Shown: positions 951 through 43,279 of the stretch, one piece after another
How the letters are laid out: every line of letters starts with the position of its first letter
Numbering within the stretch: the stretch's first letter is position 1
NCBI GenBank assembly: GCA_002163155.1
Contig: MAAO01000015.1
Span: 1 to 64,000, forward strand
Reading direction: 5' to 3'
Source of the DNA: Halobacteriovorax marinus
Lineage (GTDB): Bacteria; Bdellovibrionota; Bacteriovoracia; Bacteriovoracales; Bacteriovoracaceae
DNA length: 64,000 nucleotides
Notes under the pieces: model-generated
Told to the model about the DNA's origin: nothing
Database searches by the model: none
Seen by the model: the letters and a program-made list of their open reading frames with translations, nothing else
Position numbers and translations under genes: made by a program

Positions 951-3686
951 CTATCCTACACAACTGAGAATGGCCGCTGCCACTTTCTCTTGATTTGTCT
1001 TATCCACAAACTTATTAAAACCACTACGTTCACTGCGTTCTTCATCTATATTGGAAATTCTACTTCCCATAGCAACTACAGGAATATCTGGATTCGTTTC
1101 TCTAATATGTTTTACTAGTTCCCACCCATTTAAATTTGGCATATCAAGATCAGTTATAACCAATTTCAAATCGGCGTTTTCCTTAATCCTATCCTTTGCC
1201 TCTATTCCATCGCATGCCAAGATAACGTCAAAACCTAATTCACTAATAACTTCCTTTTGAACACGACGATGCATAGGGGAATCATCCACTAATAGTATTT
1301 TTGATCCATGAATGATGGGTTCGCCTTTGCTACTACTTTGTATATCTACGAGACTATGAATATCTAAGAGAGAAACAGTTTTTTCATTTACAAAAAGTGT
1401 ACCCATAATACCGTCACGATCAGAAGTCTCAACATTCACATCGCTCTGACTAAAGGCTATATCTTTTATCGATTTCACTACTAATCCAAAAAAGGTTCCC
1501 CGTATTTTTACAACTACACACGCAATAAAATCATCCTGACCCGCATCCTCTCTTCTAAGTTCAGATGCTCCAGAAAGATTCAAAGCTTTCTCAATATCCA
1601 TTAAAATCATAGGCATATTTCTATAGCGAACGAGAGGTTGCTCACCAGTCCACTCGACGCTGCTAAAGGGAAACTCTTCTAATCTATTTACAAGACACAG
1701 AGGAATACCGTAATTCCTCTTATCTCCAAGTTCAGTGAGGAGTATTTCTTGAGACTCTCCATCAGAAATGAGATTTGCTTCTTCATCGGAGGAAGATATA
1801 TCTGCTTTTTGAGTTTTACCGCTATCAACAGAATTAAAAAACCCTAGGGCATCAATAATGAGGGCAACACGTCCATCACCCATAATAGTCGCTCCACCAA
1901 AGAGATTTAAATCTTTGAGTTTTCGTGACAAAGGCTTGACTACAATCTCTTCTGTGTCCAAAACATTATCGACAATCAATCCGTAACACTGGCCTTCAGC
2001 ATTTAAGATAACAATATTTAAAGAGTCACTAATGTTCCCGTTATCCTCTGATTCGATCTCTACAAGTTGTAATTTACTATTTAATCTAAAGACTGGAATG
2101 AGTTCACCTCTAAGTCGATAAAAATCAGAATCATGAACTTTTTCAATTCTAGTCTCTTCTAATTCTTTCTCAAGACGTACTAATTCCACTAAATTAATCT
2201 GTGGGATGGCAAATGTTTCCTCAGCAGATCTAATGACAAGAGCTGGAACAATTGCAAGCGTTAGTGGTATTTTTAATTTAAAACTTGTTCCATAGCCAAC
2301 TTCGGAAATAACATCGACAGATCCGCCAATTTTTTCAATATTACTTTTCACCACATCCATTCCGACTCCACGTCCAGAAATATTTGTGACTTGCTCAGCA
2401 GTAGAAAAGCCTGGAGTAAAAATAAGATTTAGGATTTGTCTTTCCGAAAATGTTTCAGCTTTTTCTTTGGAGATGACATTTTTACTTACGGCTTTTGCCA
2501 ATATTTTTTCAGGGTCAATCCCATTACCATCATCACTTATTTCAATCGTAACCTGACCACCTTCGTGATAAGACTTAATAGAAATATTCCCCTCTTCCGT
2601 TTTACCATTCGCAACTCTATTTTCTGGAGTTTCTATTCCATGGTCTACTGAGTTTCGTACTAAGTGAGTCATTGGATCACGAATGGCCTCCAAGAGTGTT
2701 TTATCTAGCTCAGTTTCTTTTCCAGAAATAGATAGTTTTATGCTCTTTCCTTGATTTCTTGATAAGTCTCTAACGATCCTTTCGAATTTCGTAAGAACAC
2801 TTCCCACAGGCTGCATTCTTGTTGTCATGATATCGTTTTGCAAATCAGTAGTAATAACGTTCAATTGTTGCGCTAACCTATTGAGCTCTGAAGAGTCATA
2901 ATTGTTAGCATATTGTAGAATTTGATTTCGATTTAAAACTAACTCTCCAACCACATTCATGATTTTATCTAAAAGTTGAACATTAACTCTTACGACACTA
3001 TCTGTAAGACTCATGACTTTCTTAGAGTCAAATTTTTCTTCAGTATTTACTTCTTCAACTACAGGTTGTGCTTTCACAACATCCACCTTTTTCACCTTTG
3101 CCAAAACTTCTTTAACTGGTTTCACGACTTCTGAAACAGGAACTTCAACATCTTTAATTTCATCTTTAATTTCATTTTTAATTTCATCTTTAATTTCATC
3201 TTTTTTGATGTTTTCAACTTGTGAAAGATCTTCAATAGCTTCACAAATTAAAACTGAATCATTGGGCTCAATAAGTTTTTGGTTCTCAATGGGGCTATCA
3301 GGTTCAGAAACTTTTTCTAACCTTGAAATAAGTTCTGAATAATCTTTACTCCCCTCTTCTTTTGTATTCTCAATATTTTTCAACATTTCCAAACACGCAT
3401 CAAAGCTTTCAAGGAGAACATCAATTATTTTTGAATTGCTTACTAATTCACCTTCACGAATAAGATCTAAAATATTTTCAGAACAATGAGTAACGCCCTC
3501 TAGTTTCTTTAACCCTAAAAAACTTGCAGACCCTTTTAATGTATGAACTTTTCTATAGATAGAATTTAATAGTTCTGTATTTTCATGTTGATTTTCATAT
3601 TTGGTAATCTCCTCACTGATTCCAGAAAGGTTATCGAAGGATTCAATTAAAAATTCATGAAGAATTGTTTCATTTACATCAGTCAT
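951..3686 (-). CDS. cheA: Hybrid chemotaxis histidine kinase CheA with C-terminal receiver domain
   Basis: About 911 residues, much longer than a standard CheA (~650). In order there is an Hpt domain with the phospho-accepting His in KVHTLKGSASFLGL, a linker with DEIK repeats, the P3 dimerisation helix (LLDKIMNVVGELVLNRNQ), a HATPase domain (LVRNSVDHGIETPENR, DDGNGIDPEKI, GRGVGMDVV), a CheW-like domain, a second diverged CheW-like region, and a receiver domain with LLVDDSPM, the phospho-Asp in VITDLDMPNLNGWELV and Lys in FVDKT. A CheA-CheY fusion of this kind occurs in FrzE of Myxococcus. A GTG at 3710 would add eight residues, but ATG 3686 gives a cleaner Hpt start. First gene of the cheA-cheW-PAS operon. 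Confidence 0.93.
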   Translation of the reverse strand: MTDVNETILHEFLIESFDNLSGISEEITKYENQHENTELLNSIYRKVHTLKGSASFLGLKKLEGVTHCSENILDLIREGELVSNSKIIDVLLESFDACLEMLKNIENTKEEGSKDYSELISRLEKVSEPDSPIENQKLIEPNDSVLICEAIEDLSQVENIKKDEIKDEIKNEIKDEIKDVEVPVSEVVKPVKEVLAKVKKVDVVKAQPVVEEVNTEEKFDSKKVMSLTDSVVRVNVQLLDKIMNVVGELVLNRNQILQYANNYDSSELNRLAQQLNVITTDLQNDIMTTRMQPVGSVLTKFERIVRDLSRNQGKSIKLSISGKETELDKTLLEAIRDPMTHLVRNSVDHGIETPENRVANGKTEEGNISIKSYHEGGQVTIEISDDGNGIDPEKILAKAVSKNVISKEKAETFSERQILNLIFTPGFSTAEQVTNISGRGVGMDVVKSNIEKIGGSVDVISEVGYGTSFKLKIPLTLAIVPALVIRSAEETFAIPQINLVELVRLEKELEETRIEKVHDSDFYRLRGELIPVFRLNSKLQLVEIESEDNGNISDSLNIVILNAEGQCYGLIVDNVLDTEEIVVKPLSRKLKDLNLFGGATIMGDGRVALIIDALGFFNSVDSGKTQKADISSSDEEANLISDGESQEILLTELGDKRNYGIPLCLVNRLEEFPFSSVEWTGEQPLVRYRNMPMILMDIEKALNLSGASELRREDAGQDDFIACVVVKIRGTFFGLVVKSIKDIAFSQSDVNVETSDRDGIMGTLFVNEKTVSLLDIHSLVDIQSSSKGEPIIHGSKILLVDDSPMHRRVQKEVISELGFDVILACDGIEAKDRIKENADLKLVITDLDMPNLNGWELVKHIRETNPDIPVVAMGSRISNIDEERSERSGFNKFVDKTNQEKVAAAILSCVG
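3151..3205 (-). repeat. 12-bp tandem repeat in the cheA linker (DEIK units)
   Basis: About four to five copies of a 12-base unit (TTAATTTCATCT on the plus strand) encode DEIKDEIKNEIKDEIK between the Hpt domain and the P3 helix. The unit is a multiple of three, so copy-number change would lengthen the linker without a frameshift. Confidence 0.8.
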
Positions 3687-3821: not shown

Positions 3822-4889
3822 CTATTTACAGAATCTTGTTTCGGCCAATGTATTGATATTGTCGACTTGAACAGTACGACAATCAATGAAACTTCGATAG
3901 ACATTCGAAGGGTAACATTCAGGAGATTTAGAGTTTTGCTTACTCCAATCATTATTCTTTTTGCAGTTCAAATAACTTTCTTGATCAACGCAGGCCCAGT
4001 GTTTGCCTGTACAATTATAAGCAAGACCTCTCCCTGTATTTCTATAATTTGGAGGTTCTTGATAAGTTAACTTTTCTTTTACAACACTCTTAATCATCTT
4101 ACTTTCATCGGACTCTTTTGCTAAATTATCTAAGGCCTGTGAAAGATCCTTGTCTTGCCCAATCTTTTCACTAGGACTTTCTCCCATTGCGGCGTCCATA
4201 GCGGGAGCAGGAGCAGGATCAGTTTTTAAACTCAGAGCATTGTCTATCATGATTTCTTTAGGAGCTGGTTCAGGTTCTTTCACCTGTACAGCTTTTAGAA
4301 CTGGTTCAACAGGGGGCACTTCTTTGACTTCAACTGCCTTAGGCATGTCTTTTGCCATTTTCTTGGGAGCATCTTTAGCGACATCTTCTTTACCAGCAGC
4401 TTTATTAGCTGCTGCTGCTTTCTTAGCTGCTAATTTCTTTAAACGTCTTCTCTTTGAAGCTGCTAGCTGCGCAGGTGTTTTCTTCTTTCTTGCCTTTCTC
4501 TTTCTCGTTACAGGCTTTTGTTGAACAAGTTCCTCATCTCCACCCAAGAAGGTATCAACTCCAAGAACTACAAGTAAGCCTACGATGCCTAATCTTATTA
4601 TTTTTTGTTTTTTCTTTTTCTTTGCTGCTTCTTCATCGTCGTCTTCATCTTCTTCGTCTTCTTCATCTTCGTCTTCAAATTCCTCATCTTCATCATTTGA
4701 TTCAGATTTAGCTTTTGGCTTCAGTTTATCCTTAACGTTTATTTCTTCCGTTCTATCTTCAAACTCACCTTCTTCGACTTCAAACTCATCGTCGTCTTCA
4801 AATTCTTCATCAGATGAATTTCCACCCGGCAGTTTTGACCTTATCGTACTTACAAGGCCTTCCATTTTCTCTTTTAGATCGTCAAACAT
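3822..4889 (-). CDS. Acidic single-pass membrane protein with cysteine-containing C-terminus, function unknown
   Basis: The frame is open from 5039, but the supported start is ATG 4889, preceded by AAAGGAAAGAAG; the upstream extension would run into the divergent aldolase gene. The product is about 355 residues. It has a highly acidic N-terminal half (runs of E/D around residues 25-110), a lysine block, one hydrophobic segment (IIRLGIVGLLVVLGVDTFLG), then an Ala/Lys/Pro-rich stretch (KKLAAKKAAAANKAAGK). The C-terminal ~70 residues have several cysteines (NCTGKHWACVDQESYLNCKK). The acidic part is predicted cytoplasmic and the cysteine region periplasmic, where disulfides could form. I do not recognise the family. 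Confidence 0.75.
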   Translation of the reverse strand: MFDDLKEKMEGLVSTIRSKLPGGNSSDEEFEDDDEFEVEEGEFEDRTEEINVKDKLKPKAKSESNDEDEEFEDEDEEDEEDEDDDEEAAKKKKKQKIIRLGIVGLLVVLGVDTFLGGDEELVQQKPVTRKRKARKKKTPAQLAASKRRRLKKLAAKKAAAANKAAGKEDVAKDAPKKMAKDMPKAVEVKEVPPVEPVLKAVQVKEPEPAPKEIMIDNALSLKTDPAPAPAMDAAMGESPSEKIGQDKDLSQALDNLAKESDESKMIKSVVKEKLTYQEPPNYRNTGRGLAYNCTGKHWACVDQESYLNCKKNNDWSKQNSKSPECYPSNVYRSFIDCRTVQVDNINTLAETRFCK

Positions 4890-31127: not shown

Positions 31128-31841
31128 TTAGTAAACTGCTGTTGGGTTCTTCATTAAAGCTTTAGTTAAATCGATAATGTAATATCTAGAGTTGTATCTA
31201 AATCTAAATATTTTCGAGCGTTGGTTATAATTATTATTATTATTATTATTATAGTAGTTACTTAAATCAATTGATCCACTATAAGCACTAATTGACATCG
31301 AAATATCTTGCCAACCATAGTACTGACTATATTTCTCTACTTTAGAGGCATTTCGAATAATATTTAAAAGACCTTCTCTTAAGCTTGATACAGTTGATCC
31401 AAATTGAGAATCACTTACTGGTGCAGAGTACGTAGCTCCATTTGCCGTGAAGTTTCTGTATACAGTATTTCTATCACTATCTAAAAATCTCCAGTAATAG
31501 TTATTTACCTGAGACTGTGATCTTTCTTGTTGTTGTTCCATACAGTCGTCATAGCCCCAGCAAAAATCGAAGTTGAAATTCGAACTTGAGGAGTTATTCT
31601 TTGGAAATGAATATAATCCAGCATCACTTGCTTCATCAAAGCGGTTATTGGCCACTTCATTATAGAACTCATCTCTTGTATTAGCTCCCTGTCCTGGGTT
31701 CGCTGTAATCGATGTATTGACACCATTGATGGGTGTATTTGCAGCTCCTGAGTCGGTAGAGTTCTTATCTCCACCACATGAAGTCACCCCAAAGGCGATC
31801 ATAGCTGCAACTAGCAAATGTAATCCTGTTTTAAATTTCAT
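31128..31841 (-). CDS. Lipoprotein with Asn repeat, unknown
   Basis: 237 residues. The signal peptide ends in a lipobox with Cys at ~22 (FGVTSCGGDKN). The mature part is Ser/Thr/Asn-rich, contains an aromatic-acidic segment (FNFDFCWGYDDCMEQQQERS), and a run of seven or more Asn coded by the ATT microsatellite (SNYYNNNNNNNYNQ). The C-terminal region (FRFRYNSRYYIIDLTKAL) looks globular. No family recognised. Anchoring in a membrane leaflet is inferred from the lipobox. Confidence 0.8.
   Translation of the reverse strand: MKFKTGLHLLVAAMIAFGVTSCGGDKNSTDSGAANTPINGVNTSITANPGQGANTRDEFYNEVANNRFDEASDAGLYSFPKNNSSSSNFNFDFCWGYDDCMEQQQERSQSQVNNYYWRFLDSDRNTVYRNFTANGATYSAPVSDSQFGSTVSSLREGLLNIIRNASKVEKYSQYYGWQDISMSISAYSGSIDLSNYYNNNNNNNYNQRSKIFRFRYNSRYYIIDLTKALMKNPTAVY
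31230..31250. repeat. (ATT)7 microsatellite inside the lipoprotein gene
   Basis: Seven uninterrupted ATT units, read as AAT (Asn) codons on the minus strand. Slippage would change the length of the Asn tract without a frameshift. Confidence 0.95.
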
Positions 31842-31988: not shown

Positions 31989-32014
31989 AAAAAAACTCCC
32001 CATTCGGGGAGTTT
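31989..32014 (-). terminator. Intrinsic terminator of the FecR/EK-repeat gene
   Basis: On the minus strand AAACTCCCC-GAAT-GGGGAGTTT (32014-31993) is followed by further Ts. A 9-bp stem with tetraloop, about 40 bases after the stop codon. Confidence 0.93.
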
Positions 32015-32054
32015 CTTGTTCATAAAATAATCACTTCTCTCTATATCTTTATTA

Positions 32055-33560
32055 TTATCCTTTCTTATTCTTATGTTTCTTCTTATCTTTTTCTTTTTGT
32101 TTTTCTTTTTCTTTCTCGCGATCTTTATCTTTTTCGCGTTCTTTCTCTTTCTCACGCTGGCGCTCTTTTTCTTTTTCACGCTCTTTTTCTTTTTCACGCT
32201 CTTTTTCTTTTTCACGCTCTTTTTCTTTTTCACGCTCTTTTTCTTTTTCACGTTCTTTTTCTTTTTCACGTTCCTTTTCTTTTTCACGCTCTTTTTCTTT
32301 CTCGCGTTCCTTCTCTTTCTCTTTCTCTTTCTCTTTTTCACGCTCTTTTTCTTTCTCGCGTTCTTTCTCTTTTTCCTTCTCTTTTTCCTTCTCTTTTTCT
32401 TTTTCTTTCTCTTTTTCTTTCTCTTTTTCTTTCTCTTTTTCTTTCTCTTTTTCTTTTTCTTTCTCTTTTTCTTTCTCTTTTTCCTTCTCTTTTTCTTTTT
32501 CTTTCTCTTTTTCTTTTTCACTTTCTTTTGCTTTCTCTTTTTCCCTGTCTTTGTCGTTATTAGAGGCTATATCTCTTCCTGGAGATTTTTTCACAAGCAC
32601 TACTGGATCAATACGTTGCTTTTCCTCTACAGGTTCTGAGTTTTTAGGTCTTTCATCTCTATCTGTTGAAGCAACCTTATCTTCACTACCTTTCTTTTCT
32701 TCAGGGATAATCAGCTTATCTCTCATATTTTGAAAAATACTATCATTAATTTTCTTATCAACCTGAGACTGTTCTTTCATTACAGGCCTAGTATCTTCTT
32801 CTTTATTACCTTCTTCTTTTGAAGCAGGGACTCTAGAAGGTTCTACCGTTGGTGCCTTTATATTAAACTCAACACCTTTAACTAACTTTTTATCTACTTT
32901 CTTTCTCACATCATGTAAGAAAACTTCATCAGACTTTCTAGATCTCTTTGCCAAAGCAAAAACTCTTTTATTCATTCTTCTAATACTAGCTTTCTGTGCA
33001 ATTTTTTGTGACATCTTACCTAATGATGATTGATAAACGAAACCAGGATTAATCATCACCTTCTTGTTTTCACCCTTAGACTGAATTTCTAACTTTCCAG
33101 AAAGGAGTGCGATGTTAGTTGTAATTTTACCTTTGTACTTGAATACATCTGAAAGGATTTCTGTTCCCCTAATACCCATCGAAGCCGAAGGAGTATTAAT
33201 ATGTAAACTTCTAGTTTTCGATTTAACCGTAAATAAACTTCTAAGCTTACCTTTAGTAAGATTATAAACAGCTGTTCTGTCAGATTTTGTTTTAAATTCG
33301 AATTTATCTAGTGCGAATACTGAATTGGGACCCAATTGAAAAATCGTATCATCCTTCATAAGAAGTTTTATGACCGAACTCTTACCACTTACTATTTTAT
33401 CACCGACTGAAAGATGATCTCCTTTTTTAAGTTTGTACTTTGTTCCAGCAACCACTTTCTGCACATCACCATGAACTCGAACAACTCTCCCAATAGACTC
33501 CATCGCAAGAACTTGGAAACTAAGCGAGAAAACTAATATCGATAGTAAGATTTGTTTCAT
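32055..33560 (-). CDS. Exported FecR-domain protein with long EK/EKEKER repeat tail
   Basis: 501 residues with signal peptide MKQILLSILVFSLSFQVLA. Residues ~20-170 form a FecR domain: VVRVHGDVQKVVAGTKYKLK, GDKIVSGKSSVIKLLM, the motif NTPSASMGIRGTEI and ALLSGKLEIQS. A linker follows with basic and acidic patches. From ~340 to the end the sequence is almost purely E and K with regular R, in EK dipeptides and an EKEKER hexapeptide. Such a charged repeat likely forms an extended helix or polyampholyte chain. There is no FecI sigma factor or TonB receptor nearby. It is divergent from an outer-membrane barrel gene. Confidence 0.9.
   Translation of the reverse strand: MKQILLSILVFSLSFQVLAMESIGRVVRVHGDVQKVVAGTKYKLKKGDHLSVGDKIVSGKSSVIKLLMKDDTIFQLGPNSVFALDKFEFKTKSDRTAVYNLTKGKLRSLFTVKSKTRSLHINTPSASMGIRGTEILSDVFKYKGKITTNIALLSGKLEIQSKGENKKVMINPGFVYQSSLGKMSQKIAQKASIRRMNKRVFALAKRSRKSDEVFLHDVRKKVDKKLVKGVEFNIKAPTVEPSRVPASKEEGNKEEDTRPVMKEQSQVDKKINDSIFQNMRDKLIIPEEKKGSEDKVASTDRDERPKNSEPVEEKQRIDPVVLVKKSPGRDIASNNDKDREKEKAKESEKEKEKEKEKEKEKEKEKEKEKEKEKEKEKEKEKEKEKEKEKEKEKEKEKEKEREKEKEREKEKEKEKEKEREKEKEREKEKEREKEKEREKEKEREKEKEREKEKEREKEKEREKEKERQREKEKEREKDKDREKEKEKQKEKDKKKHKNKKG
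32177..32320. repeat. 18-bp tandem repeat, about eight copies (EKEKER)
   Basis: The CACG or CGCG marker of the unit recurs at 32177, 32195, 32213, 32231, 32249, 32267, 32285 and 32303, an exact 18-base spacing. One unit reads CACGCTCTTTTTCTTTTT on the plus strand. Less regular 6-base units (CTTTTT/CTTTCT) extend the array from ~32090 to ~32540. Confidence 0.95.
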
Positions 33561-33798
33561 GGGTGCTCTCCTAAAGCGAAGCTCTTTCCAAAAGTAATTA
33601 GTAGTAATTTTACCTTTAATTACGATTCCTACATATTATCGGAAAGTTAGAGAATTACTTGAGCAAAAAGCTCCATCTTTTATTGCCACTCAACTCCCAA
33701 GTCATTGAAAATTCATAAGCTAGAAATTCATACCGCGTAGAATGAGAATTTAATCTAAGTTACTATTTTTATTAAGATTATTTAAAACTTAAGAACTT

Positions 33799-35430
33799 AT
33801 GACTATTATCTTTAGATGTATTTTTACATTTCTTTTGCTTCATCAAGTTAGCGCCGCAACTATCGTTGGCGAGATGAATGAAGTGCGTCTCGCTAAGATC
33901 GAACTGGCGCTTGAGGACAAGGAATACAAGCTAGCGCTAAGACTAATAAAGACCAACCTAGACTCTGGCGAATTACATATCCCTACTTATTTTCTTCTAG
34001 CAAGACTACATATGGACCGCGGAAAGTATTCTAAGGCCATGAGAGCTTACTACTATGTCATAAAGAAAATTCATCCCATCGATGGTAAGAAAATAATCTT
34101 ACAACGAACCGAAAGTGGGCTGGTTAATTTACTAAAAAGTATTACCGTCCCTACCAATAAAGCTCTCGAAGTTTATATGGAAGTTGGAAAAACCTTCTAC
34201 TCTATTGCAGACAGTTTTGAACATAGAAAAGAATTTCGCATGCAACTCTATTTACATGCAAAGAAGTTTTTTAAAGTCTGTGAGAGATTTAGATATGATC
34301 TTGCTACAAGTAAATTCTTCATAGGGCTCGTGAACTCTAAATCGAAAAATGTCATGGACGCCATTGGAAATTTCTACGATGCCAAAGAACTTCTTATCGC
34401 AGGAAAAGCTGATCCAAATGAAATAAAGAAAATAAACTATCTCTTGGCCGAATCTCTCATTCGCGAAGGTAAGACAGATGCTGGAATTATCTATTTAAAA
34501 ACAATCACAACAGATAAGAATGTAGAAGCTTCTCTAAAGAAGTACGCCGAACTCTATTTAAGTGGAATTCGTTCAAGCTACTCAGCGCTAAGCTTTGGAA
34601 TCGATTATGCCTACAAATCAAATATTAACTCCCTAAATGAAGACGAGCTGGCCACCCAAACGGAGGCTGACTATATTACAAAAGATGGGGTCACTGTTAC
34701 TAAGAAAATTGGCCTTGTATTTTCATCTGGTCAGAAGGGAAATTTCACCTATAGAACAAGTGTCAGTATTAGTGATGAAGAAAATAAAAACCGCGAACTC
34801 GTAACTCTAGATTCAAGAAGTTACAGTGGGTACCTAACAATTAAGTACAACAACTTTGAAAAATCTATTTTCACAGTAGACTTCGGCTACGGGCAAGAAT
34901 ACAGCCCCATTAGTGCAGAGAGTGGACAAAAGAAAACAAGTGCCACTACAAGTCTAGATTTAGAATACTTACACAACATTAAATCTGGAACATTGAGCTA
35001 TAGCGTTCCCATTCGCTATCTTGAATCTGAATCCTCACAGAAGGCCAGTATTAATAAAGGAATTGGTCTGACCTATAGCCCATTCTGGAGTACTAAACAC
35101 TTCTCCCCCTCATATTCATTTAACATGACATCGGTTGATGAAGGAGAAGGTATTGCTTCTTCTCTACGCTATGATCTCTCCCTAAGTAATAGTTCTAGCA
35201 TTAGCGAAAACTTCAGTGTTTTTACATACTTAGCTTATTCTCAAAACAGTAATACAGATCCAGAATTGGCCTACAAAGATTACGACATAGGTCTCTACTT
35301 CACTTATTACATTCGATACTTCTCAGGACTCTCACTGGATACAGAGTTGAGTCAAAGCTTATCCACCACAGATGAAGGTAAAACAACAAAGAAATTTGAA
35401 ACCTCTTTAGGCCTTACCTATTCATTTTAA
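33799..35430 (+). CDS. Outer-membrane protein: helical-repeat N-terminus plus C-terminal beta-barrel
   Basis: 543 residues with signal peptide (IFRCIFTFLLLHQVSAA). Residues ~25-260 are helical with TPR-like spacing (KEYKLALRLIKTNLDSGEL, YFLLARLHMDRGKYSKAMRAY). From ~265 to the end the sequence is alternating polar/hydrophobic strands with Tyr/Ser and turns (ALSFGIDYAYKSNINS, FTYRTSVSISDEENKN), ending in Phe as outer-membrane barrels do. The layout recalls TPR-barrel proteins such as Slam/DUF560, but I cannot confirm that family. It diverges from the FecR gene across 238 bases. Confidence 0.8.
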   Translation: MTIIFRCIFTFLLLHQVSAATIVGEMNEVRLAKIELALEDKEYKLALRLIKTNLDSGELHIPTYFLLARLHMDRGKYSKAMRAYYYVIKKIHPIDGKKIILQRTESGLVNLLKSITVPTNKALEVYMEVGKTFYSIADSFEHRKEFRMQLYLHAKKFFKVCERFRYDLATSKFFIGLVNSKSKNVMDAIGNFYDAKELLIAGKADPNEIKKINYLLAESLIREGKTDAGIIYLKTITTDKNVEASLKKYAELYLSGIRSSYSALSFGIDYAYKSNINSLNEDELATQTEADYITKDGVTVTKKIGLVFSSGQKGNFTYRTSVSISDEENKNRELVTLDSRSYSGYLTIKYNNFEKSIFTVDFGYGQEYSPISAESGQKKTSATTSLDLEYLHNIKSGTLSYSVPIRYLESESSQKASINKGIGLTYSPFWSTKHFSPSYSFNMTSVDEGEGIASSLRYDLSLSNSSSISENFSVFTYLAYSQNSNTDPELAYKDYDIGLYFTYYIRYFSGLSLDTELSQSLSTTDEGKTTKKFETSLGLTYSF

Positions 35431-35466: not shown

Positions 35467-37002
35467 TTGAAATCAATAAGTAATATAAGTGATAGAGCGC
35501 TACTAGTAATTCTAGATGGTTACGGTCTTGATGAAGCAGATCACAAAAATGCCATAAAACATGCCAAGACACCTAATATCGACCAGCTCTTTAAAGACTA
35601 CCCCTTCACTAAAATTGAAGCCGGTGGAGTTAAAGTTGGACTCCCAAAAGGTTTGGCCGGCAACTCTGAAGTTGGACACATGAATCTAGGAGCTGGGCGG
35701 CCAGTGAGACAAGACCTTGTGCGAATAAATGAATCAATTGAGAAAGGTGAATTTTCATCTCTAGAAGAATTAACCAAACTTAAAAATGTAGCGAGAAAGA
35801 ATTCTAAGAGAATTCACATTATGGGCCTACTCTCAGACGGAGGAGTTCATTCGCACATAGACCATATTAAAGAAGTCATCAGTGCTCTAAGTAAAGATGG
35901 CGACCTCGAAATTTTCTTTCACGCCTTTATGGATGGAAGGGATACTGCAAGAAATGTAGGCCATAAGTATGTTACAGATCTTTTGACTGTGCCTGGTTTT
36001 ACTTTTGCCTCTATGCAGGGAAGATCAATTGGTATGGATCGTGATCGCAGATGGGAAAAAGTAAAACATGCCTATGATACTTTTACAGGAGCTGGAGAAA
36101 CTACGACTCTCTCTCCAAGTGAATATTTAGAAGCAGAGTACAAGAAAGAACTCTACGATGAATTTGTGACACCTGTTTTATTTTCTAAAGACAGTGCCAT
36201 GAAAGATGGAGACTCAGTTTTCTTTATCAATTTTAGACCAGACAGAGCGATTCAATTATCTCTTTGTTTCAATGATCCAAAGTTTAGTGAATTTGAAAGA
36301 AGTTTCTTACCAGCACACTTTCTTTGTATGACTCCCTATATTCCAGATGAAGTAAAACTTCCTATTCTCTTCAATAAAGAAAAGCTAGAAGGTGTTATGT
36401 CTGAATATGTTTCAAGCATAGGTCTTAAACAATTCAAGATTGCTGAAACTGAAAAGTACGCACATATAACTTTCTTCTTTAATGGAGGGAGTAAAAAACC
36501 TTTTAAAAATGAAGAACACTTTCTTATAGACTCTCCAAAAGATGTCGAAACTTATGATCAAAAGCCAGAGATGAGTGCTCTTCCTGTGTTAGAGAAACTT
36601 ATTGAGAAGTTAGAAGATAAAGAAATTAACTTCTATCTAGTAAACTTTGCCAACTCTGACATGGTTGGACATACAGGAAACTTTCAAGCTGCTATAAAGG
36701 CGGTTGAAACACTTGATCACTGCGTGGCTAAACTTGTAGAAAAATGTGAAGAAGAAGGAGTGGCCCTAATCTTAACTGCTGATCATGGAAATAGTGATCA
36801 AATGGCATACGAAGATGGATCTCCTCACACTTCGCACACTAAATCATTAGTCCCTCTTTGTGTTTTTCATAAAGATTTAAAGAATTGTGAATTTAAAGTT
36901 ACTGACGGAGATCATTCACTTATGGATGTCTCTCCAACAATTTTATATATTTTAGGTAAGGAATATCCTCCCCTATTTACTGGAAAAAATATTTTTGAAT
37001 AA
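35467..37002 (+). CDS. gpmI: 2,3-bisphosphoglycerate-independent phosphoglycerate mutase
   Basis: 511 residues, usual GpmI length, from TTG 35467 behind GGAG. Visible are LLVILDGYG, the phosphoserine nucleophile in GNSEVGHMNLGAGR, HIMGLLSDGGVHSH, AFMDGRDT, and the metal site VNFANSDMVGHTG and ILTADHGNSDQM. It converts 3- to 2-phosphoglycerate using Mn. It is followed after 9 bases by pfkA, forming a glycolytic pair. Confidence 0.97.
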   Translation: MKSISNISDRALLVILDGYGLDEADHKNAIKHAKTPNIDQLFKDYPFTKIEAGGVKVGLPKGLAGNSEVGHMNLGAGRPVRQDLVRINESIEKGEFSSLEELTKLKNVARKNSKRIHIMGLLSDGGVHSHIDHIKEVISALSKDGDLEIFFHAFMDGRDTARNVGHKYVTDLLTVPGFTFASMQGRSIGMDRDRRWEKVKHAYDTFTGAGETTTLSPSEYLEAEYKKELYDEFVTPVLFSKDSAMKDGDSVFFINFRPDRAIQLSLCFNDPKFSEFERSFLPAHFLCMTPYIPDEVKLPILFNKEKLEGVMSEYVSSIGLKQFKIAETEKYAHITFFFNGGSKKPFKNEEHFLIDSPKDVETYDQKPEMSALPVLEKLIEKLEDKEINFYLVNFANSDMVGHTGNFQAAIKAVETLDHCVAKLVEKCEEEGVALILTADHGNSDQMAYEDGSPHTSHTKSLVPLCVFHKDLKNCEFKVTDGDHSLMDVSPTILYILGKEYPPLFTGKNIFE

Positions 37003-42364: not shown

Positions 42365-43279
42365 TTATTGATCGACCATATCTTTAGTCTCTTCGACTAG
42401 GGCCTTGAGAATACTCTGGGTCTTCTTGTCTAATTTCAGGTCTTTAGACTTCATATTCATAGCTTTTAAGAAGGCACTGGCGGACAATCCCTTGGGAAGT
42501 ACGGCTTTCTTTGTCGTCTTCTTTGTCGTCTTTTTAGTCGTTTTCTTAGTCACTTTCTTCTTACCAGCGGCAACGACACCACCAGAAATAGCTTTCTTAA
42601 GCTGAGCTCTTTTGGTGATTTCACCTGAGTGAACTAATTTCTCAAGTTTCTTCTTAAGAGGAGATGTCTCAAGGGCATCTAATTCAAGTAAGACGTACTT
42701 CTCAATATTGTGAAGTTTAGAGGCTTCTCTAAGTTTCTTAGGCATTCTCGCAATTAAGAGCGACCTGTGAACTTCAGATTTTGAAATACCTAGAGCAGAA
42801 CAAATTTTTCTCTCAGAAGCTTTTGTGGCTATTTGGTAATTTAAAATCCCATCGGCCTTATCTATATAGTGGAGCGCTTCTCTTGAAGAGTTTTCAGAGA
42901 ATTGAATCGCCATTAACTCTTCTTCAGATTTATTATCTAAAACAAAGCAAGGACACTCTTTTAAATTAATAAGAGACATGGCCCTATAACGTCTTTCACC
43001 ACAAATTAATGTGTAACCTTTCTTCGACTTATGAAGAACAAGTGGTTGGATCAGACCATTGACTTGAATATTAGAGGCAAGTTCTTTTAATGAAGAATCA
43101 TTGAACTTTGTTCTAACCTGCTCTTTAACGATGATATCTTTAAGTGAGATCTCATGTAACTTAGCTCCACGTAGTAAACGCTCGTCGGCTAATTTTATAA
43201 GGTCACGAGTAAGATTCTCTGACAGATCTATTGTTTTTCTTTGTTTTTTTGAAACTCTTGGCGCGAACGACTTTGCCAT
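42365..43279 (-). CDS. parB: Chromosome-partitioning protein ParB
   Basis: 304 residues. ParB/Spo0J N-domain: LKEIxxKDIIVKEQVRTKFNDSSLKELASNIQVNGLIQPLVLH-like with GERRYRAMSLI (CTP-binding box), FSENSSREALHYIDKADGI, and a HTH KASERKICSALGISKSEVHRSL. The linker contains KKTTKK repeats. It is ~46 bases downstream of parA in the same orientation. No parS-like site (TGTTTCACGTGAAACA type) was found by eye in this window. Confidence 0.93.
   Translation of the reverse strand: MAKSFAPRVSKKQRKTIDLSENLTRDLIKLADERLLRGAKLHEISLKDIIVKEQVRTKFNDSSLKELASNIQVNGLIQPLVLHKSKKGYTLICGERRYRAMSLINLKECPCFVLDNKSEEELMAIQFSENSSREALHYIDKADGILNYQIATKASERKICSALGISKSEVHRSLLIARMPKKLREASKLHNIEKYVLLELDALETSPLKKKLEKLVHSGEITKRAQLKKAISGGVVAAGKKKVTKKTTKKTTKKTTKKAVLPKGLSASAFLKAMNMKSKDLKLDKKTQSILKALVEETKDMVDQ

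Follow-up and report, generated by a model that had tools for sequence, protein, structure and literature searches.

A FecR-Domain Protein and a Divergently Encoded TPR-Barrel Protein as a Recurrent, Putative Envelope Module in Halobacteriovorax marinus and Its Relatives

Introduction

What is known of FecR domains comes mainly from iron-signalling anti-sigma systems, of which they form one half. Here we describe a locus of the predatory bacterium Halobacteriovorax marinus in which a FecR-domain protein, P0001, is encoded divergently from P0002, a predicted outer-membrane barrel protein with an N-terminal tetratricopeptide repeat (TPR) domain; the locus lies in a 64,000-nucleotide stretch of DNA (GenBank assembly GCA_002163155.1, contig MAAO01000015.1, positions 1 to 64,000) that was analysed as a whole and is called the window below. 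On comparison of genomes, the pair appears to be a conserved envelope module for which we found no description in the literature searched; nor did those searches turn up a paper on FecR-domain proteins of either Bdellovibrio or Halobacteriovorax. P0001 also ends in a long charged tail—striking, yet judging from its orthologues peripheral to the conserved pair and not the core of the system.

Comparison with Described Systems

In its FecR domain, its fold, its predicted periplasmic location, and its outer-membrane partner, P0001 resembles the FecR/PupR regulators (PF04773; 4m0n, 6ovk). It differs from them in carrying a signal peptide, straight after which the mature protein begins with the FecR region, and in having neither a cytoplasmic anti-sigma domain nor a transmembrane helix; in addition, its partner is a TPR-barrel protein, and no extracytoplasmic function (ECF) sigma factor or TonB-dependent receptor was found among the open reading frames (ORFs) read at 27-41 kb or in the syntenic loci. 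For these reasons we reject a canonical FecIRA set, as an earlier sequence-only reading of this DNA had also done. The retention module of LapA and MpAFP (NF033682; 5ix9) is similar to P0001 in profile and fold, and in both an N-terminal periplasmic domain is followed by a long extended segment; however, P0001 has a Sec signal peptide where those proteins rely on type 1 secretion, has no adhesin repeats and no LapG, and falls below the family cut-off.

For P0002, as modelled with AlphaFold2 (AF2), the nearest described architecture is that of the Slam/DUF560 type XI barrels (PF04575, PF24575), in which TPR domains precede a 14-strand barrel (PMC8406197). P0002 nonetheless lacks a match to the hidden Markov models (HMMs) of that family, and the gene beside it encodes a FecR protein rather than a TbpB-type substrate. 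The exopolysaccharide exporters BcsC and PgaA also place a periplasmic TPR domain before an outer-membrane barrel; P0002 differs in its much shorter TPR domain and in having no adjacent polysaccharide synthase genes, and we reject its membership in this group on strand number (14 in the model, not 16).

The tail of P0001 invites comparison with other charged segments. TonB and TolA have long charged arms that span the periplasm, and the Ala/Lys/Glu-rich tails of two P0001 orthologues (L074, L136) are TolA-like; P0001 differs in having no inner-membrane anchor. Single alpha-helix (ER/K) domains are similar in composition, and AF2 renders the tail as one 153-residue helix, but the canonical i,i+4 salt-bridge pattern is missing: in the alternating run, 0% of the i,i+4 pairs are oppositely charged (all are like-charged), while 100% are opposite at i+3. 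We therefore reject a canonical charged single alpha-helix. A closer parallel is offered by the (Glu-Lys)25 model polyampholytes, where the strict alternation in P0001 (kappa ~0.001) corresponds to the low-kappa end of the series; in modelling work, such well-mixed chains behave as expanded coils (PMC9213797, PMC7503639).

Architecture of the Two Proteins

P0001 carries a signal peptide (MKQILLSILVFSLSFQVLA) and a single FecR domain, which matches PF04773 at 39.4 bits against a curated cut-off of 24. The sequence-only reading had recognized both; the ORF itself is real, and the first position of the interval it gave, 31989, falls at a terminator-like hairpin (Table 1). The best fold matches of the domain are a FecR-family protein (4m0n, Z 11.9) and PupR (6ovk, Z 11.8). 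A further match, of residues 20-114, is to 5ix9, the domain that anchors the adhesin MpAFP at the cell surface (Z 7.0, 74 of 76 residues, root-mean-square deviation 2.1), and a FecR profile built from six barrel partners had 5ix9 as its sole match among PDB sequences (E 3.2e-4; P0001 residues 25-90). With the NCBIfam model retention_LapA (NF033682), P0001 scores 23.2 bits against a cut-off of 50 and eight of nine partners match, likewise below the cut-off; the LapG protease (PF06035) has no match in the organism's own genome. The two likenesses, to FecR/PupR regulators and to the MpAFP/LapA retention module, both point to the periplasm.

P0002 also has a signal peptide, and its AF2 model (mean pLDDT 83, pTM 0.69) bears out the earlier description of an exported neighbour with a helical repeat and a barrel, the former as TPR-like helices and the latter as 14 strands. 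The barrel matches CymA (Z 23.1 over 272 residues) and OmpG (Z ~21), and the best Foldseek matches include BcsC, a TPR-barrel. The Foldseek/VIA matches contain no Slam structure, an absence that does not rule out a Slam fold, and ten members of the P0002 family show no match to DUF560 (PF04575) or TPR_Slam (PF24575) at E<=1. As modelled, P0002 would be an outer-membrane barrel with a periplasmic TPR domain. The export signals and domains of both proteins are direct observations, apart from the barrel, which comes from the model.

Conservation, Loss, and Co-Divergence

P0002 is present in ten other genomes among 59 relatives, and in most of these a divergent FecR match adjoins it. Profile searches of 129 genomes of the order and 369 of the phylum recovered the barrel family in 32 of the 369, all within the window's own family, which the named loci from a scan with the FecR alignment place as Bacteriovoracaceae/Halobacteriovoraceae. 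When 31 barrel loci were inspected, the window's own included, 22 had a divergent FecR gene beside the barrel, across 12 genera. Conversely, both genes are gone from the slot before gpmI, with the neighbours still in order, in three congeners of the window's species (G001, G003, G004) and in G015, from another genus. The sequence-only reading had named conservation of the neighbour pair in advance as its test, and the relatives uphold it. FecR and barrel distances are also correlated: a mirror-tree comparison of 17 pairs gave a partial rho of 0.48 when controlling for gpmI (permutation p 5e-4), from alignments of ~20% identity. Conservation, co-loss, and correlated divergence are each seen directly in the genomes, and the pair appears to have been gained or lost mostly together among relatives.

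Further FecR and TPR-Barrel Loci

The best argument that the two proteins cooperate is that FecR domains recurrently accompany TPR-barrel proteins. A second locus in the same genome (L023:4-4920; G000:C1, ~919.5-924.4 kb) has co-directional genes for a FecR protein, a TPR-barrel protein, and CHASE2 plus cyclase—an apparent outer-membrane-to-cyclase sensing operon, judging from its gene order—and L185 and L187 have the same order. TPR-barrels of this type are homologous to P0002 (hhalign probability 95.7, E 8.6e-9, 456 columns), and the one at L023 matches TPR_Slam (PF24575) at E 4.5e-4, below cut-off. A groundwater deltaproteobacterial contig (L173:936-3740) holds a divergent FecR/TPR-barrel pair only weakly similar to the P0002 profile; the arrangement may be more widespread.

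The organism's own 4.55-Mb genome contains 16 FecR-domain ORFs (L001-L016), many exported and with differing C-terminal regions. Four FecR proteins of 630-716 aa (L020, L024, L026, L030) have in common a repeated motif, GGYxDxxTGxYxPP / GGFDxxTGxYxPPxGL, and mostly an aromatic last residue; they were considered as FecR-barrel fusions and set aside, as the C-terminal region of the L020 group has no P0002 homology (hhalign probability 0.2), and they are not used as evidence here. At L026:4166-8490, the 716-aa member, with a possible C-terminal barrel, is followed by two genes, one TolC-like and one of 177 aa that resembles an ECF sigma factor.

The Charged Tail

The sequence-only reading had described ~150 charged residues and an exact 18-base repeat, and both are there: residues 348-495 consist solely of E, K, R, D, and Q, and the 18-nt period is exact over 92 nt. 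Within the alternating run, E fills each first place and K or R each second (60 E, 49 K, and 11 R). Tandem Repeats Finder (TRF) reports an array at 32061-32543 with 6/36/54-nt periods, its length being as assembled in a 16-contig assembly. That reading had also cast the tail as a working spacer or filament, a claim that fares poorly in the comparison with relatives, for which one genome per species was used. Neither the nearest orthologue (L073, 65% over the FecR region) nor the own-genome paralogue (L024, 66%) has an EK run, and the EK tail is absent from all other P0001 orthologues read—their tails are Pro-rich (L078, L133), Ala/Lys-rich (L074, L136), Arg/Lys/Glu-rich (L077, L135), coiled-coil-like (L076, L079), or, in some, short. 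At the DNA level, the EK pattern occurs at the P0001 locus in this genome only; elsewhere in the family it occurs in unrelated proteins. The run is probably a recent, lineage-specific expansion, because it is missing from the closest relatives and the pattern is otherwise confined to unrelated proteins.

Outside Arg codons, adjacent tail units differ by 49 mismatches at codon position 3 and by 0 at positions 1-2, a frame-specific pattern that is itself observed and from which it follows that the tail frame is probably translated and maintained by selection on the protein. The argument is of moderate strength, since a tandem duplication carries existing changes along with it and as few as 3-6 of the events may be independent, giving p ~0.04 to 0.001 on a one-in-three argument.

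Two observations on related sequences may be recorded here. EK-type runs are found in unrelated proteins of other family members (L113, L115, L117, L125), one of these proteins being an enzyme that resembles AMP ligases and another resembling a sensor kinase. Among the FecR partners of genus g58, L143-L146 and L149 have a common helical-looking C-terminal region of ~280 aa with the motif VWDVASRS...KWG.

Locus Layout

The features of the locus are collected in Table 1; the 238-base divergent gap is as described earlier. No promoter or terminator signal at the locus exceeds shuffles, and Rfam gave no match. The usual order in the family is rlmL, a 275-aa gene, acyl-CoA dehydrogenase, lipoprotein, FecR, barrel, gpmI, and pfkA. 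In the window the small lipoprotein (31128-31841; CGGDKN) has an Asn/Tyr-rich stretch (TTA array at 31225-31252); it is syntenic with the FecR/barrel pair and is retained where the pair is lost. Other TRF tandem arrays in the window lie at 3149-3203 (12-nt), 4612-4696 (15/18/30-nt), and 42505-42559 (12/24-nt units).

Table 1. Features of the FecR/TPR-barrel locus, in positions of the window.
Feature	Position	Strand	Basis or remark
P0001, FecR-domain exported protein, 501 aa	32055-33560	-	ORF; PF04773 E 8.8e-10
P0001 signal peptide, ~residues 1-20, no lipobox	33501-33560	-	sequence; similar Sec signal peptides in orthologues
P0001 FecR domain, residues 54-156	33093-33401	-	HMM, structure and profile comparisons
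P0001 linker, residues 227-346, low confidence, probably disordered	32523-32882	-	AF2 pLDDT mostly <50
P0001 charged tail, residues 336-501, cationic end KDKKKHKNKKG	32058-32555	-	
Perfectly alternating E/(K,R) run, 120 residues, 348-467	32160-32519	-	codon-position analysis
Exact 18-nt period (EKEKER units), 92 nt	32161-32252	.	
Terminator-like hairpin downstream of P0001	31993-32014	.	number of such sites in region not above shuffles
Divergent intergenic region P0001/P0002, 238 bp	33561-33798	.	no promoter match above chance
P0002, TPR + 14-strand outer-membrane barrel protein (predicted), 543 aa	33799-35430	+	ORF; AF2 model
P0002 TPR-like helical domain, residues 27-257	33877-34569	+	weak Pfam TPR matches; AF2 helices
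P0002 14-strand barrel, residues 261-542, aromatic C-terminus	34579-35424	+	AF2; structure matches
gpmI-like phosphoglycerate mutase, syntenic neighbour, 36 bp downstream of P0002 (context only)	35467-37002	+	

Discussion

We consider it moderately probable that FecR is a periplasmic partner that docks on the barrel protein's TPR domain and modulates the barrel, the arm being a variable extension. P0001 and P0002 would then make up one accessory envelope module: P0002 would sit in the outer membrane as a 14-strand barrel (as in the AF2 model) with its N-terminal TPR domain in the periplasm, and P0001, exported by Sec and not lipidated, would lie in the periplasm, where its FecR domain would dock on the periplasmic side of the barrel, with the TPR domain as the likeliest site. 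Once docked, it may act as an accessory, regulatory, or gating partner, like FecR-type domains at outer-membrane receptors. The C-terminal arm would be a lineage-variable extension; in this species, growth of an EK/EKEKER hexamer/18-mer repeat would have turned it into a well-mixed polyampholyte, kept extended, soluble, and non-sticky in the periplasm.

FecR is most likely a periplasmic accessory of the barrel because the pair is conserved and co-lost, its distances are correlated, and a second FecR/TPR-barrel locus exists. Some observations weigh against this reading. FecR is missing beside a retained barrel in G011, G146, and G110, in G010 and G089, where the barrel lies in a different context, and in G099, G103, G100, and G075, so the barrel can persist without it; the partners at L079, L081, and L138 have the FecR domain only in degenerate form, and the mirror-tree alignments are of low identity. 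The losses suggest that FecR, though a frequent partner, is dispensable, and that the barrel forms the core.

FecR domains act in signal relay across the periplasm in FecA-FecR, and a comparable outer-membrane sensing module, in which barrel and FecR relay a signal to an inner-membrane receptor and the arm bridges to an unlinked inner-membrane partner, is an unlikely alternative. The gene row at L023, L185, and L187, with a P0002-homologous barrel, speaks for it, as does Sinorhizobium meliloti, in which the cAMP regulator Clr has a FecR protein and a TPR protein among its targets (PMC5498481); however, cyclase, sigma factor, and sensor genes are all missing from the conserved window-type locus, and the arm is lineage-specific. 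Distinctly less likely is display by a retention module, in which FecR would be a periplasmic stopper and the arm would thread through the 14-strand barrel to the surface, compare LapA (through a TolC-like pore) and CdrA (in a two-partner system) (PMC13090378). The match of residues 25-90 to the MpAFP anchoring domain in profile and fold, the retention_LapA matches in most partners, and a fast-varying arm placed after the FecR domain fit this picture, but no adhesin, repeat, or secretion domain was found after the FecR domain, the C-termini of several partners are short or form folded helical regions, LapG has no match in the genome, the retention_LapA score is far under its cut-off, and FecR/PupR folds match P0001 better than 5ix9 does. 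We think it very improbable that P0001 is an anchored surface thread of a new kind—a Sec-exported FecR/retention-type stopper in the periplasm with a polyampholyte arm through a dedicated TPR-14-strand barrel, serving the predator as a zwitterionic anti-adhesive or reach-extending fibre. Equally improbable is Slam/type XI-like secretion of the neighbouring FecR protein to the surface: the TPR plus 14-strand design and the sub-threshold PF24575 match of the homologous L023 barrel favour it, yet the ten family members lack DUF560 and TPR_Slam matches, there is no TbpB-type substrate barrel, P0001 has no lipobox, and several lineages keep the barrel and lose FecR.

Compatible with any of these readings of the pair is the view that the tail alone is a near-neutral microsatellite expansion without a specific role, to which we give a substantial though less than even chance. 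EK runs in unrelated family proteins and the lack of one in the nearest orthologue and paralogue agree with it; third-position-only variation and perfect alternation over 120 residues argue against it, and weaken it only, because the independent codon events are few.

FecR domains recur here as predicted periplasmic companions of outer-membrane TPR-barrel proteins, and at least two distinct types of FecR plus TPR-barrel locus are seen, one of them with a CHASE2 cyclase gene alongside; should the two proteins be physical partners, they would make up an outer-membrane module. The tail of P0001, for its part, contains a polyampholyte run of 120 perfectly alternating residues—a kind of sequence rarely met in nature and known mainly as a model polymer.

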